DNA of 33,420 bases from Prochlorococcus sp. AG-347-K15 (lineage in GTDB: Bacteria > Cyanobacteriota > Cyanobacteriia > PCC-6307 > Cyanobiaceae). The stretch is taken from contig QCCC01000013.1 of the NCBI GenBank assembly GCA_003281415.1, positions 1 through 33,420 of the forward strand. Reading direction: 5' to 3'. Positions 5,630-10,372 of the stretch are shown here, piece by piece; the stretch's first letter is position 1, and every line of letters starts with the position of its first letter. Made by a program: the position numbers and the translations under genes. The notes beneath the pieces were generated by a model. The model saw only the letters and a program-made list of their open reading frames with translations. It did no database searches and was not told the DNA's origin.

Positions 5630-6046
5630 ATGCTTCAGAGTAATAGATTAACAATTTATGCTATCGGCAAAATAAAGAAACTCTGGATTAGAGATGGAAT
5701 TAATCAATACAAAAAAAGAATGCCTGAACTTATTATTAATGAGTTAAAGACTTTTAATTTAAATAATCTTAGATCTAATAACAATATTATTATCTGCCTA
5801 AGTGAAGAAGGTAAGCAGTTTAATTCAGTTGAACTATGTTCTTTTCTCTTAAGTTTTAAAAATAAAAAAATTAATTTCTTAATCGGTGATACTGATGGAA
5901 TAAGTTCAGATATAAAAAAAAATTCAGATCTTATAGTAAGTTTGTCTCCTTTAACTTTTCCGCATGAATTAGCTAGATTAATTCTAATCGAGCAAATCTA
6001 TAGAGCTGTTTCTATATCTAATAACTCTCCTTACCACCGTTCTTAA
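5630..6046 (+). CDS. rlmH: 23S rRNA (pseudouridine1915-N3)-methyltransferase RlmH
   Basis: RlmH is a small SPOUT-family methyltransferase that methylates N3 of pseudouridine 1915 in helix 69 of 23S rRNA on assembled 70S ribosomes. The 138-residue length is close to the usual 155. The N-terminus has IYAIGKIKK (usual IxAVGK), the middle has [19 protein letters not shown], the SPOUT knot region shows [12 protein letters not shown] where most homologues have a GG-x-x-G pattern, and the C-terminus has the hallmark [21 protein letters not shown] followed by SPYHRS. The ATG at 5630 is well placed. A promoter for the next gene, umuD, must lie in the 99 bases after its stop. The IGDTDG variant of the cofactor loop is a mild oddity but the rest of the fold motif is intact. 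Confidence 0.92.
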
Positions 6047-6116
6047 AAAGATTAGATTTAATCTAAAATTAATCTATAAAACTTTAATAACTAACTATTT
6101 TTTGAATTTTTATTAT

Positions 6117-6134
6117 ATAGTACATATATACTAT
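6117..6134 (+). promoter_or_regulatory. Putative LexA operator (SOS box) upstream of umuD
   Basis: The 18 bases at 6117-6134 (ATAGTACATATATACTAT) form an inverted repeat with one mispaired position. The core 6119-6132 fits 13 of 14 positions of the cyanobacterial LexA consensus RGTACNNNDGTWCB, the miss being A for G at the start of the right half. It starts 29 bases and ends 12 bases before the TTG start of umuD, and overlaps a possible -10 element (TATTATA, 6111-6117). Position upstream of a canonical SOS gene makes it the best operator candidate in the window. Binding is inferred. Confidence 0.7.
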
Positions 6135-6145
6135 TAATTCAAATC

Positions 6146-6562
6146 TTGGATTCCTTCGATTCAACTACTAAAAAATTTAAAATCCCCTTATTAAATGATT
6201 CAGTATCTGCAGGATTTCCTTCTCCAGCAGATGACTATACGGAAGAAAATATTGATTTAAATGAACATTTAATATCTAATCCGTTTAGCACTTTTTTTCT
6301 TAGAGTTAAAGGTGAATCAATGATAAATGCAGGAATTAAAAATAAAGATTTAATAATAGTAGACAAGAGTTTAATAGCCAAGCCAGGGGATATTGTCATT
6401 GCAATGATAGACGGGGAATTTACAATAAAAAGATTATCTATAAAAAATGATGAATTATATTTAAAAGCAGAAAATCATAATTATCCTGATTTTAGCTTTA
6501 AAAACCATATTGATATACAGATATGGGGAGTGGTTATTTATTCAATACATAGCTATTTATGA
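6146..6562 (+). CDS. umuD: UmuD-like SOS mutagenesis protein, S24-type self-cleaving peptidase
   Basis: UmuD is cleaved with RecA help to UmuD', the accessory subunit of the translesion polymerase pol V. The 138-residue protein has the S24 serine-lysine dyad: Ser58 in VKGESM and Lys95 in FTIKRL, close to the E. coli positions 60 and 97. The expected cleavage site is Ala22-Gly23 in SVSAGFPSPADDY (Cys-Gly in E. coli). Downstream motifs GDIVIAMIDG and LKAENHNYPDF are family-typical. The start is a TTG; no upstream in-frame ATG exists and the N-terminal length then matches the family. It has no visible Shine-Dalgarno sequence. A LexA-like box lies just upstream, and the stop codon overlaps the umuC start as ATGA, so the pair is translationally coupled. 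Confidence 0.93.
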   Translation: MDSFDSTTKKFKIPLLNDSVSAGFPSPADDYTEENIDLNEHLISNPFSTFFLRVKGESMINAGIKNKDLIIVDKSLIAKPGDIVIAMIDGEFTIKRLSIKNDELYLKAENHNYPDFSFKNHIDIQIWGVVIYSIHSYL

Positions 6563-7845
6563 GAATTTCAAGTAATGATGCTATAGCTCTTATAGATGCT
6601 AATAATTTTTATGCGTCATGTGAACAAAATATTAATCCTAATTTAAGAAATAAACCAGTAGTAATTTTATCTAATAATGATGGATGTATCATTGCAAGAA
6701 GTCCTGAAGCGCGAGCTTTAAAAATTAAAATGGGAACTCCTTATTTTAAGATCAAAGAAAAATTAAATAAATTAGATGTAGCAGTCTTAAGCTCAAACTA
6801 CTCGCTTTACGGCGATATGAGCAGAAGACTAATGAATTTACTAAAAAACTACTGTGAAGAAATAGAAATTTATTCTATTGACGAAGCATTTGTCTCAATT
6901 TCTAGACCTAATGATAAAAATCTATATTCTTGGGCAAGAAACATAAGATCATCAATATATCAGAATCTAGGTATTACCATAACAGTAGGAATAGGAGAAA
7001 ATAAAGTAAGAGCAAAAATTGCCAATAAATTAGCTAAAAATATTGATTATTCAGCTGGAATATTTGATTTAGCTAGAACCAGAAATGAGAATAATTATTT
7101 AAAAAGAATTAGTGTAGATAAGATATGGGGAGTCGGGAAACAAACCTCTAATTGGCTGCAAAGTAAAGGTATTAAGAATGCGAAAGAATTAAGAGATATG
7201 GAAGAAAATGAAATCATCAAGAAACTAGGCATAGTTGGAAAAAGATTGCAATTAGAATTGAAAGGTTATAAATGTCTGCCTATAGAAAAAAACAAGAAAT
7301 CAAAAAAAGAAATTCAGGTAAGCAGGAGTTTCGGTACTCCTGTCACAAAATTAGAAGACTTAACTCAAGCACTAGCGACTCACGCAATAAAAGCATCTGA
7401 AAAAATGAGAAGTCAGAATTTGCAATCATCTAATATTAGAGTATTTGCAAGAACCAGTAAATATTCAAGTCAAAATTATCAAAGAAGTGCTCATAGAAAA
7501 CTTACAAATGCAACAGACGACACAAACAGCATTTTAAAAATAATAGTTGAATTATCTAAAGAAATTTATAATCCCGAATATAAATTTTCAAAAGCTGGTG
7601 TTTTAATGCAGGATTTAACTAATAGTGAATATTTACAGCAATCAGTTATCAATTACAAATCTCAGAAAGACCTAAAAAAATCAGCAATTCTCATGAGAAC
7701 TATTGATTTATTAAATAAAAGATTTAATAACAATGCAATTACATGGGCTATTACAAAAACTCCAAAAAGTTGGACGATGAATAAGAATTTCTTAAGTCGC
7801 TCATCTACAACTGATATAGAACAGATCCCAACTATAGTAAAGTAA
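6559..7845 (+). CDS. umuC: UmuC-like Y-family DNA polymerase (pol V catalytic subunit)
   Basis: 428-residue translesion polymerase that with UmuD' copies past DNA lesions at the cost of mutations. Y-family motifs are complete: ALIDANNFYASCEQ with metal-binding Asp13, the YSLYGDMSRR steric segment (about residues 81-90), the catalytic YSIDEAFV with Asp108-Glu109, the little-finger-preceding VGIGENKVRAKIANKLAK, and the helix-hairpin-helix region VDKIWGVGKQTSNWL. The C-terminal domain has the UmuC-typical GVLMQDL stretch, but I do not see a canonical QLxLF beta-clamp motif. All catalytic carboxylates are present, so it should be active. The ATG overlaps the umuD stop. The next gene starts 9 bases after its TAA, implying a three-gene damage-inducible unit. 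Confidence 0.95.
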   Translation: MRISSNDAIALIDANNFYASCEQNINPNLRNKPVVILSNNDGCIIARSPEARALKIKMGTPYFKIKEKLNKLDVAVLSSNYSLYGDMSRRLMNLLKNYCEEIEIYSIDEAFVSISRPNDKNLYSWARNIRSSIYQNLGITITVGIGENKVRAKIANKLAKNIDYSAGIFDLARTRNENNYLKRISVDKIWGVGKQTSNWLQSKGIKNAKELRDMEENEIIKKLGIVGKRLQLELKGYKCLPIEKNKKSKKEIQVSRSFGTPVTKLEDLTQALATHAIKASEKMRSQNLQSSNIRVFARTSKYSSQNYQRSAHRKLTNATDDTNSILKIIVELSKEIYNPEYKFSKAGVLMQDLTNSEYLQQSVINYKSQKDLKKSAILMRTIDLLNKRFNNNAITWAITKTPKSWTMNKNFLSRSSTTDIEQIPTIVK

Positions 7846-7854
7846 AAAAATAAA

Positions 7855-8322
7855 ATGGAATTTATTATATTTTTAAGCAAATTAGATAAAGAGATTCTTG
7901 ACTTATTAATAAAAGCAAACTATGTAGTTGAAGAAAATAAAATTGAATGTCTCATAAATAAAGAAATAAAAGGACTACATAATTTTGTAGAAAATAAAAT
8001 AATAATATGTACTGAAAATGCAAAAAGAAAAACAAATTATAGAAATGAAAAGCAGCGACCAAATAAAGACAACTTCAAAACAGAATTAGCAATAAGAAAA
8101 GCATTAAGACATGAAGCTACTCATGCTATACAAAAATGTAACCACAATAAGACAGTAGGGGATATAAAAAATTTAGAAGCTAAATTACATCAAAGTAAGA
8201 GGAGATCATTAGAGTTCTCTACTTCCAATTTTTCTGGAAATTATGCAAAAGAAGTAGAAGCTTATATTCTTGAAGACAAGCCCAAAAAAGTAAAAAATAT
8301 GATTAAAAAATACTGCCTATAA
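7855..8322 (+). CDS. Small HExxH putative zinc metallopeptidase downstream of umuC
   Basis: 155-residue protein with a zincin signature: RHEATHAIQKCN places His86, Glu87 and His90 in an HExxH helix, and KEVEAYILED downstream offers Glu133 or Glu135 as third zinc ligand. The spacing (about 43-45 residues) and the Cys-rich flanks (Cys32, Cys52, Cys95, Cys154) recall the Atp23/M76-like organisation, though I cannot confirm that family. The middle is highly basic (about residues 56-75), which would suit nucleic-acid or chaperone contact. No signal peptide or membrane helix, so it should be cytoplasmic. Its ATG is 9 bases after the umuC stop, with no room for a separate promoter, so it should share the LexA-controlled transcript. 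Substrate and role are unknown. It converges on dnaG with a 16-base gap. Confidence 0.75.
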   Translation: MEFIIFLSKLDKEILDLLIKANYVVEENKIECLINKEIKGLHNFVENKIIICTENAKRKTNYRNEKQRPNKDNFKTELAIRKALRHEATHAIQKCNHNKTVGDIKNLEAKLHQSKRRSLEFSTSNFSGNYAKEVEAYILEDKPKKVKNMIKKYCL

Positions 8323-8338
8323 ATTTAAATAAAATATA

Positions 8339-10372
8339 TTAACTAGCAATAAAATTACCACAGCGTTGTTTATCTAAAAAACTTATATGTTGTCTTTCTA
8401 AGTAATATAATTCCTGAAATTTAATCGCATCTGAGTTTAAATCCTTAAAGAGATCATCTATCTCTTTATTATTCTCTGAGGTAGCTGAAGAAGGATTATC
8501 GATTAAAATAGAAATACAATTTTCTAAAGTTTTTAATCTTTGTGATCCCCAAGATTCGATCAAGTGTCTACATCTTTTTAAAGAATTATATTTTTCAAGA
8601 AGTGATAAAGTTCCAAGTAAATTATCTTTAGGATTACTAAGCAATGTTAAAAATAATTCATTTGGATTAACAAAATTATTAATTTTATTTGATAATTCAG
8701 GATTATAAAGAGCTAAGTGATCAGTAAGAAGTGAAATTAAGTCAATACCAAAAAACTCTTTTAGAAGATTTTGACTATTAGATTCTTTTAATTCATTTAA
8801 ATAATTTAAACCTAAATTATTTTGTTCAATTTTTGAAATAGCTTCCCATAAATTTTGAATATGAGTAGTATTAAAACGATTAATTTCTCTTTTGAGAAAT
8901 TCATCGCGAATAAATAACCGAAGATCAGGGCAATGCAAATAATAAAAGATTATTTCCGATTCATTTTTCTCACGCCGAGAAATATCATTTGGTTGTTCAA
9001 ATTTTTTTGATCTGCCATGCCAACGAAATCCCTTAACTTGATTTCTTAAATCTTGTTCGAACTGTATCGCTAACCTTGCTTGTCCCTTACTCAATCGTTC
9101 GGAAACTTTTTGTAAGTAATGGGTTCTAGTTGATGATTGAGGTAATTTGCTCAACAATTTTACCAATGAAGAAATAACACTCTGGAAATTTTCAGACTTA
9201 GTTAAATCTTTATCTTTAAAGATCTGATCAATCTCCCAATCAATCCAAAAGGATGAATTATCAATTAGATTAAAATAATCTTCTGGAGAATGATTATTCA
9301 AAAATTCGTCAGGATCTTTAAAATTATTAAGTTGAAGTATCTTAAGATTAATTTGATCATGGAGAGATAAGCTTTCGACTTCTTTTATTACTCTTTTTGT
9401 AGCTAATATTCCTGGATTATCAGAATCAAAATTCAATATTATATTTTTATTATCTGTACATCTACATAGTTGAGAAATTTGATATTTATTTAATGCGGTG
9501 CCGAGGGAAGCTACTGAATTAGTTATACCTTTTGAATGAAGAGCAATTACATCAAAGTATCCTTCTACAATAACAGCTTTATCTCTTTTTCTTATATTGC
9601 TAGATGCTTTTTCAAATGCAAATAACATTTTCCCTTTTTCAAATATCTCTGATTCAGGAGAATTAAGATATTTGGGTTCTTGTCCATCAAGTGATCTTCC
9701 ACCAAAGGCAACTACACGTCCCTGCATATCATGTATTGGAACGATTAATCTATTTCTAAAACGATCATAAATCTTGTCAGGATTATCTTTAGAAATTGCA
9801 AGACCTGAAGCCAATATTAGATTAATAGGAAACTTTTCAACTTTGGATAGATAGTTAAATAAATCATTCCATGAATTTGGGGCAAATCCTAGTTCAAATT
9901 CATTAATAATTTTATTACTCAAGTTTCTCTTGTTTGTTAAATATTTCATGGCTTCAACACCTAGAGAATTATTTAATTGAGACTTAAACCAATTTTTAGT
10001 GACTCTTAATATTTTATAAAGCTCTTCCTTTCTAGATAATTGTTTTTTATAAGCTTCTACTTGGGGACCCTCAAGATTTTCCACATTAATATTATTTTTC
10101 TTAGCTAGAGAAAGTACAACATCAGAAAAATTTGCACGAGTAAATTCCATTAAAAATTTAATAGAGTTACCACCAGCACCACAAGAAAAACAATAATAAA
10201 ATTGTTTAGTTGGTGATACTGTCATAGATGGCTTAGTATCATCATGAAAAGGACAAATCCCAACAAATTCCTTTCCTTTCTTTTTAAGAACAATATGTTC
10301 AGATATAACGTCAACAATATCTGCTTTTTCCTTAACCTCTTTAATAGTTCTTGGGTGTATAGAATGAACCAT
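8339..10372 (-). CDS. dnaG: DNA primase DnaG
   Basis: DnaG synthesises the RNA primers for chromosome replication. The 677-residue protein (from the ATG at 10372) has the CHC2 zinc-binding domain near residues 35-65 (CPFHDDTKPSM, then FYYCFSCGAGGNSIKFLM), the primase core with KRNLSNKIINEFELGFAP and FRNRLIVPIHDMQGRVVAFGGR, and the TOPRIM domain with VIVEGYFDVIAL and ILNFDSDNPG (metal-binding Glu and DxD). The C-terminal third is the less conserved helicase-interacting part. An in-frame TTG at 10387 would add five residues (MIKIS), but the ATG gives MVHSIHPRTIKEV, the family-typical beginning. It converges with the metallopeptidase gene and diverges from the EamA permease. Confidence 0.96.
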   Translation of the reverse strand: MVHSIHPRTIKEVKEKADIVDVISEHIVLKKKGKEFVGICPFHDDTKPSMTVSPTKQFYYCFSCGAGGNSIKFLMEFTRANFSDVVLSLAKKNNINVENLEGPQVEAYKKQLSRKEELYKILRVTKNWFKSQLNNSLGVEAMKYLTNKRNLSNKIINEFELGFAPNSWNDLFNYLSKVEKFPINLILASGLAISKDNPDKIYDRFRNRLIVPIHDMQGRVVAFGGRSLDGQEPKYLNSPESEIFEKGKMLFAFEKASSNIRKRDKAVIVEGYFDVIALHSKGITNSVASLGTALNKYQISQLCRCTDNKNIILNFDSDNPGILATKRVIKEVESLSLHDQINLKILQLNNFKDPDEFLNNHSPEDYFNLIDNSSFWIDWEIDQIFKDKDLTKSENFQSVISSLVKLLSKLPQSSTRTHYLQKVSERLSKGQARLAIQFEQDLRNQVKGFRWHGRSKKFEQPNDISRREKNESEIIFYYLHCPDLRLFIRDEFLKREINRFNTTHIQNLWEAISKIEQNNLGLNYLNELKESNSQNLLKEFFGIDLISLLTDHLALYNPELSNKINNFVNPNELFLTLLSNPKDNLLGTLSLLEKYNSLKRCRHLIESWGSQRLKTLENCISILIDNPSSATSENNKEIDDLFKDLNSDAIKFQELYYLERQHISFLDKQRCGNFIAS

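Follow-up and report, generated by a model that had tools for sequence, protein, structure and literature searches.

We analyzed a stretch of 33,420 nucleotides (nt), contig QCCC01000013.1 of Prochlorococcus sp. AG-347-K15, hereafter the window; the genome it belongs to comprises 50 contigs. In the window, a LexA box precedes umuD and umuC, the genes for the two subunits of DNA polymerase V (Pol V), and a third gene encodes a 155-residue protein that is probably zincin-like. Homologs of this protein are found next to the sliding clamp gene in viral contigs, and this placement underlies the interpretation developed below. The features of the locus are as follows.

6118..6133, no strand: LexA box TAGTACATATATACTA, ending 12 bases ahead of the umuD start; supported by cross-genome conservation and by the consensus printed in PMC2921402
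6146..6562, + strand: umuD, autoproteolytic subunit of Pol V; Peptidase_S24 at 2.4e-33 and NF007621 (NCBIfam Pol V UmuD) at 4.7e-48, passing the cut-off
6559..7845, + strand: umuC, catalytic subunit of Pol V; IMS at 1.1e-40, IMS_C and DUF4113; PRK03609 at 3.7e-99 and 332.5 bits, under the cut-off of 431
7855..8322, + strand: third gene, encoding a 155-residue, probably zincin-like protein without a signal-like N-terminus and without a Pfam or NCBIfam family; PHROG 16003
8110..8124, + strand: HEATH (H86, E87, A, T, H90), candidate catalytic motif; H86, E87 and H90 invariant in 47/47 rows
8251..8253, + strand: E133, candidate third metal ligand (E133-x-x-A136); E133 and A136 invariant in 47/47 rows

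The umuD start codon is TTG, and the umuD stop TGA overlaps the umuC ATG as ATGA. Between the end of the umuC stop (7845) and the third-gene ATG (7855) lie 9 bases. Both junctions are as described in an earlier note on this DNA, which was made from the letters of the window. The short gap and the same orientation, shared by 142 of 143 genomes, suggest a common transcription unit. umuD, umuC and the third gene form a LexA-box-headed three-gene unit that may share one transcript. We found no sigma-70 consensus promoter at 6000-6250 and no intrinsic terminator at 7600-8500. With the umuD TTG only 12 bases past the LexA box and no such promoter, the real start codon or promoter may differ from those given here.

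The LexA box fits 13 of the 14 defined positions of TAGTACA-N2-TGTACTA and is the top-scoring site in the window. Ahead of umuD, the box was kept at 12-13 of 14 positions in 19/19 same-genus loci read (L054 did not include the region) and at 11-13 of 14 positions in 11/11 loci of other genera. The near-perfect LexA palindrome that the earlier note had placed at 6117-6134 was thus recovered at 6118-6133.

We analyzed the conservation of the third protein in 47 aligned sequences. Thirteen columns were invariant: E27, C32, G40, C52, T53, H86, E87, H90, C95, E133, A136, E140 and C154. They include the HExxH residues of the HEATH motif that had been reported at residues 86-90 of this 155-residue protein. 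An acidic third ligand had been proposed at about 133-135; E133 held throughout the alignment, whereas E135 is replaced by Gln in three of the 47 sequences (L260, L262 and L263), which makes E133 the better candidate. The ratio of nonsynonymous to synonymous substitution rates (Ka/Ks) was about 0.13-0.22 for the third gene (8 pairs) and similar, 0.13-0.20, for umuC (six pairs). Judged by these ratios, the third open reading frame (ORF) evolves under purifying selection.

The earlier note could not name the family, and searches with hidden Markov models left it unnamed. The window protein was claimed by no Pfam or NCBIfam family, and NCBIfam gave no credible match. PHROG 16003, of unknown function, matched 30/30 members tested (best 1.7e-17; window protein 1.4e-9). 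The profile thus fits the third protein, but since the function of the phage family is unknown it supplies a label, not an explanation. Sub-threshold Pfam matches among the 30 members were most often to metallopeptidases, namely Peptidase_M76 in five (best E 0.0084) and WLM in four (best E 0.0081), with a SprT-like match in one (E 0.1). For the window protein itself, neither SprT-like nor WLM matched in Pfam up to E 1. Peptidase M76 (PF09768) did not match it either, and the best relative, an exported protein, reached 23.2 bits against a cut-off of 25.2. Peptidase M78 (PF06114) had no match to the window protein up to E 1, was not among the best 25 of 26 families for the 30 members, and scored 12.6 bits against a cut-off of 22 in one exported relative. 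Solved structures, searched by single sequence and by profile, returned chance-level matches only, and no homologs were found in a plasmid search. PADLOC had no match for the window protein; a KwaB match of one viral member (E 0.0063) was taken as chance. From its motif, the third protein is a candidate zincin that reaches no named peptidase family.

We utilized AlphaFold2 to predict the structure of the window protein. The model had a predicted local distance difference test score (pLDDT) of 91.8 and a predicted template modeling score (pTM) of 0.88, with the HExxH motif inside a helix (residues 74-95) and E133 on another (residues 130-139). The model of a viral homolog (L059) was similarly scored, with pLDDT 95.6 and pTM 0.90. 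VIA-align was run on Foldseek candidates; by the tool's own warning, Z below 8 can be a common arrangement. A family missing from the fold tables is not thereby excluded. With the host model, the top row was IrrE (3dti; Z 7.1, root-mean-square deviation (rmsd) 2.0, 79 residues aligned), tied with lethal-factor chains (Z up to 6.7, rmsd 4.0, 123 aligned) and followed by ArdC (6sna; Z 6.0, rmsd 3.2, 92 aligned) and Wss1 (5ln5; Z 4.3, rmsd 3.6, 83 aligned). With the viral model, lethal-factor chains came first (Z 6.2, rmsd 3.9, 117 aligned), and PprI (8slm) gave Z 5.6, rmsd 3.1 and 82 aligned. The structure prediction that the earlier note had called for thus returned neighbors that are mostly zincins, with YbeY-type metallo-RNases lower, and the fold of the third protein is likely zincin-like.

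Alternatively, the third protein may be no protease. It could be a scaffold with a zincin-like fold, a redox-sensing metal protein that depends more on its four cysteines than on HExxH, or some other metal-dependent hydrolase. C32, C52, C95 and C154 are invariant in all 47 rows, which is unusual in a cytosolic protein; in the homolog of phage ACG-2014f, the counterparts of C95 and C154 are both missing, as a disulfide pair would be; and YbeY-type metallo-RNases appear among the structural rows. We nevertheless consider this quite unlikely, because E87 is invariant alongside H86, H90 and E133, and a purely structural metal site needs no E87. Moreover, L271, a distant relative outside the 47-row alignment, has Ser at C52, so the cysteine set is not absolute.

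Subsequently, we examined the position of the third gene in other genomes. Within the genus, the third gene was present, whole or partial, in 146 of 200 genomes and umuC in 145 of 200. It immediately follows umuC, in the same orientation, in 142 of the 143 genomes with both genes, about 6-17 nt after the stop as judged from match ends; in the sole exception (G008), the two genes are at the starts of different contigs, a contig break. Outside the genus, we took one place per genome at E < 1e-30, which gave 72 genomes, 66 of them with umuC; not counted were a second copy in each of G224 and G276 and the copies in G439, G364 and G277 (two in the last) that look phage-like. The third gene adjoined umuC on the same strand in 61 of these 66, with gaps of about 37-361 nt. 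The earlier note had asked whether the gene follows umuC elsewhere, and these counts answer that it does. Among 386 genomes across the phylum, 61 matched; the 12 outside the taxonomic family did so weakly (best E 4.4e-10) and over the C-terminal half, so that strong orthologs occurred only inside the taxonomic family. The named records closest to the third gene are from Prochlorococcus, at up to 95% identity.

Joint loss of umuC and the third gene was considered and rejected, although 20 genomes listed of the 54 without the third gene also had no umuC. In the six best-assembled genomes without the third gene, rlmH was absent as well (6/6), and the essential gene dnaG was absent in five and cut at a contig end in the sixth; the stretch is therefore missing from the data, not lost. 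An apparent remnant of the third gene in G116 was likewise set aside, as it sits at a contig end. Five genomes (G002, G003, G025, G043 and G054) are scored as 92-99% complete, yet rlmH, umuC, the third gene and dnaG were all not found in them, a trap for presence/absence counts.

Next, we examined viral homologs. Synechococcus phage DSL-LC02 encodes a protein of 136 amino acids (WJZ48381.1; L055 4001-4411) with HExxH and 29.7% identity. Its gene is flanked by genes annotated as DNA polymerase processivity factor and AAA family ATPase, which we take to be gp45 and gp44 in T4 numbering. WJZ48381.1 is annotated as serine hydroxymethyltransferase, a name that looks wrong for a homolog of the third gene. 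Two viral scans, the first covering the best 80 of 215 relatives and the second, with divergent queries, the best 80 of 168 and adding 79, yielded 159 loci; at least three contigs occur in both (L113/L329, L115/L330 and L135/L331). A sliding clamp gene was in view in 152 of the 159, and the homolog was the next gene after it in 150 of these 152. The homolog start overlapped the clamp stop by one base in 144 of the 152 and followed it by 15-21 nt in six; in the remaining two, the homolog lay 783 nt beyond the clamp. Of these 152 stretches, 136 also contained a gp44 match. Four of the seven loci with no clamp in view were cut at the contig start and had gp44, and three held exported-type proteins with neither. 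A tblastn search with the UmuD and UmuC of the window gave no match in the 80 loci of the first scan, in stretches of up to about 12 kb. This clamp adjacency in viral contigs is a new observation, and our search of the open-licence PMC literature found nothing joining cyanophage, sliding clamp and metalloprotease.

Two further named phages show the clamp setting. S-SRM01 has the same order as DSL-LC02, its 221-amino acid gene in the clamp position being annotated only as DNA polymerase. In SynMITS9220M01, a gene annotated DenV lies between the sliding clamp and the homolog (L217 3901-4500); by its name it would be a UV-damage endonuclease.

In E. coli, Pol V acts on the sliding clamp. In viruses the gene is coupled to the clamp itself, so that the cytosolic branch has a common partner in both of its settings. 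This leads us to favor a metallopeptidase acting on a protein at the sliding clamp or the fork, a tentative reading that we rate somewhat below an even chance. The third gene would encode a small cytosolic metallopeptidase, a zincin and probably a gluzincin, and LexA control would yield it together with Pol V upon DNA damage. Its target at the replication fork would be a protein seated on the sliding clamp or on the DNA there. This could be a polymerase bound to the clamp, a component of the replisome or a protein stuck on DNA, and trimming or removing it would let Pol V or normal replication go ahead. The relative in T4-type cyanophages would be translated in tandem with the phage's own sliding clamp. 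Zinc, proteolysis, co-transcription, the cytosolic and fork location and the substrate are inferred here, not observed. No signal-like N-terminus was found in five tested members of the branch at umuC and at the clamp.

Several observations weigh against a metallopeptidase at the clamp or fork. Neither the host nor the viral model had a Foldseek match in the Protein Data Bank (PDB) under E 0.001, all structural Z values are below 8 with several zincins tied, and YbeY-type metallo-RNases scored Z 4.2-5.0 with the host model (1oz9: Z 5.0, rmsd 5.6, 110 aligned). No clamp-binding peptide was seen by eye in the third protein. The viral loci are interrelated and were picked by similarity to the queries, the first 80 forming 18 clusters at 80% identity. 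Among the 50,697 records of a named-phage collection, the DSL-LC02 protein had 51 matches; ACG-2014f, whose copy is of the exported type and lies away from the clamp (one record), accounts for most of the 40 listed, and DSL-LC02, S-SRM01 and SynMITS9220M01 are the only three with the clamp setting among the matches listed. Exported relatives with signal-like N-termini occur in cyanobacteria and podophages (L264 3688-4233 in G372, L281, L276 and L279). A second, cytosolic paralog lies between genes read as secG and groEL in three genomes (L267 3216-3638, L269 3754-4191 and L275 3106-3534). Finally, outside the genus the third gene was not at umuC in five of the 66 genomes (G229, G270, G251, G224 and G241), or in eight of 69 (61 linked) when the phage-like copies of G439, G277 and G364, with umuC elsewhere, are added, and in the three unlinked host loci tested (L268, L291 and L294) no LexA box was found ahead of the gene.

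The unlinked copies have varied surroundings. G229, G270 and G251 retain umuD-umuC between rlmH and dnaG but carry the third gene elsewhere. G224 has umuC and the third gene on separate contigs, and umuD, dnaG and rlmH were not found in the stretch around umuC; the G241 copy is the secG-type paralog. Neighbors read from translations were rplT (L294), mqo and lepA (L268 and L388) and ribonucleotide reductase (L291, in a genome without a umuC match). L275 has a weak 11/14 LexA-like site at -25 (shuffle p 0.02), which is unremarkable since it is one of 20 loci scanned.

The earlier note had proposed that the protein acts on UmuD, LexA or the polymerase itself. In such a scheme it would be an SOS switch protease with UmuD, LexA or Pol V as its substrate, comparable to IrrE/PprI of Deinococcus, which cuts DdrO. 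The gene order with umuD, umuC and the LexA box agrees with this, as does IrrE as the top structural row, and PMC10904395 describes repressor cleavage by PprI that is enhanced by single-stranded DNA (ssDNA). The scheme fits the host setting only, however: the viral homolog adjoins the clamp in loci of the first scan that gave no UmuD or UmuC match, and the three unlinked copies without a LexA box weaken it further. UmuD and LexA are established to cleave themselves, the window protein does not reach Pfam M78, and no helix-turn-helix repressor stands beside the third gene among the listed ORFs of the window. We therefore regard it as very unlikely. With the homolog next to the clamp in viral contigs, a protease working at the clamp or fork is favored over one that cleaves UmuD or LexA.

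The wider family bears on a further alternative. The exported form also occurs within the genus of the window, in L264, and L274 likewise has an N-terminal hydrophobic stretch. Relatives in podophages precede the RNA polymerase gene by 3-4 nt (Syn5 gp14, L375 3667-4116; P60 gp06, L394 1472-1960). The wider family is not tied to replication, because exported relatives exist. The third protein could accordingly be a protease from a phage family that has no role at the fork but serves, for example, in attack on host proteins or in transcription; in Prochlorococcus it would simply ride in the umuDC operon for damage-controlled expression. The exported relatives, the unlinked copies and the podophage genes agree with this, and PMC2988020 states that gp45 activates T4 late transcription. 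We consider it unlikely, since the cytosolic branch occurs in two different replication settings, the clamp one being nearly invariant with the codon overlap in 144/152, and since the host gene is under purifying selection.

The relationship between phage and host forms was examined with two trees. A quick tree nested the host branch inside phages, and a careful tree with fewer long rows placed the phages on one side of a branch (74/95). We make no claim on the direction of transfer. The paralog in the secG-groEL interval is nearer the phage forms in length, and G224 and G276 also hold a umuC-type-clade copy elsewhere.

We compared the third protein with known systems. IrrE/PprI (peptidase M78, Deinococcus) is a damage-response metallopeptidase with HExxH plus a downstream Glu, and it is the top structural row, within 1 Z of other zincins. 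In contrast, the third protein consists of one 155-residue domain, its gene belongs to a LexA/Pol V operon, and no DdrO-type partner adjoins it. The SprT-like and WLM crosslink proteases, SPRTN and Wss1, are replication-linked metalloproteases, and some family members weakly match WLM or SprT-like, but no DNA-binding or clamp-binding tail was recognized in the third protein. Peptidase M76 (ATP23) is the commonest sub-threshold Pfam match, though its best score belongs to an exported relative, and ATP23 is mitochondrial. ArdC of plasmid R388 joins a metalloprotease domain to ssDNA biology (PMC7213743), but it has a separate ssDNA-binding domain and sits outside a polymerase operon. What appears new from the sequences is an unnamed zincin-like family in a replication and damage-response setting.

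A broader proposal, which we hold to be doubtful, is that of an undescribed replication-fork metalloprotease family in picocyanobacteria and T4-like phages. Phages would make their form in lock-step with the clamp, hosts would make theirs alongside Pol V under LexA control, and the two forms would clear or edit clamp-bound proteins while damaged DNA is replicated. Activity may be gated through the redox state of the four cysteines, which would link the exchange of polymerases to light stress. How bacteria switch from error-prone back to normal polymerase, and how proteins are cleared from a blocked fork, is unsettled. A protease-like gene beside Pol V, in one of the most abundant photosynthetic cells, and beside the cyanophage clamp is a concrete, easily expressed candidate for such a step; the setting suggests that proteins are cut at the replication fork in a step not yet described, and it gives PHROG 16003 a function to test.

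In the window, the gene ahead of umuD is rlmH (SPOUT_MTase match), and the third gene converges on an ORF that we read as dnaG, with 16 bases between it and the dnaG stop. Both the LexA box and umuDC were known before. PMC2921402 prints the LexA consensus and reports that umuC expression shifts with light and UV in Prochlorococcus PCC9511, and PMC3091678 predicts that umuC and umuD have a LexA site in 13 cyanobacterial genomes. In PMC3744912, two strains of marine Synechococcus responded to mitomycin C with induction of umuC. The passages on umuC expression in PMC2921402 and PMC3744912 do not show the third gene. In the open-licence PMC literature, we found no paper naming it under the locus tags PMM0936, PMM0937 and PMM0938, which were guessed from PMM0937 being umuC; only PMM0937 was named, and none of the topical matches listed treats this gene.

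Across the genome of the window, sites with at most two mismatches numbered 15 + 13 (28) for the LexA motif and 22 + 25 (47) for a reversed control. The motif is thus not enriched genome-wide, and the evidence for the box is therefore its conservation. The same genome has a one-mismatch LexA box 84 bases ahead of an ORF read as recA. On contig C8, a one-mismatch LexA-like box (L001 1501-1516) lies 13 bases ahead of a 70-amino acid ORF (1275-1487), possibly a small SOS protein, and on contig C16 another (L004 1501-1516) lies 12 bases ahead of a 292-amino acid ORF resembling an NAD-dependent epimerase.

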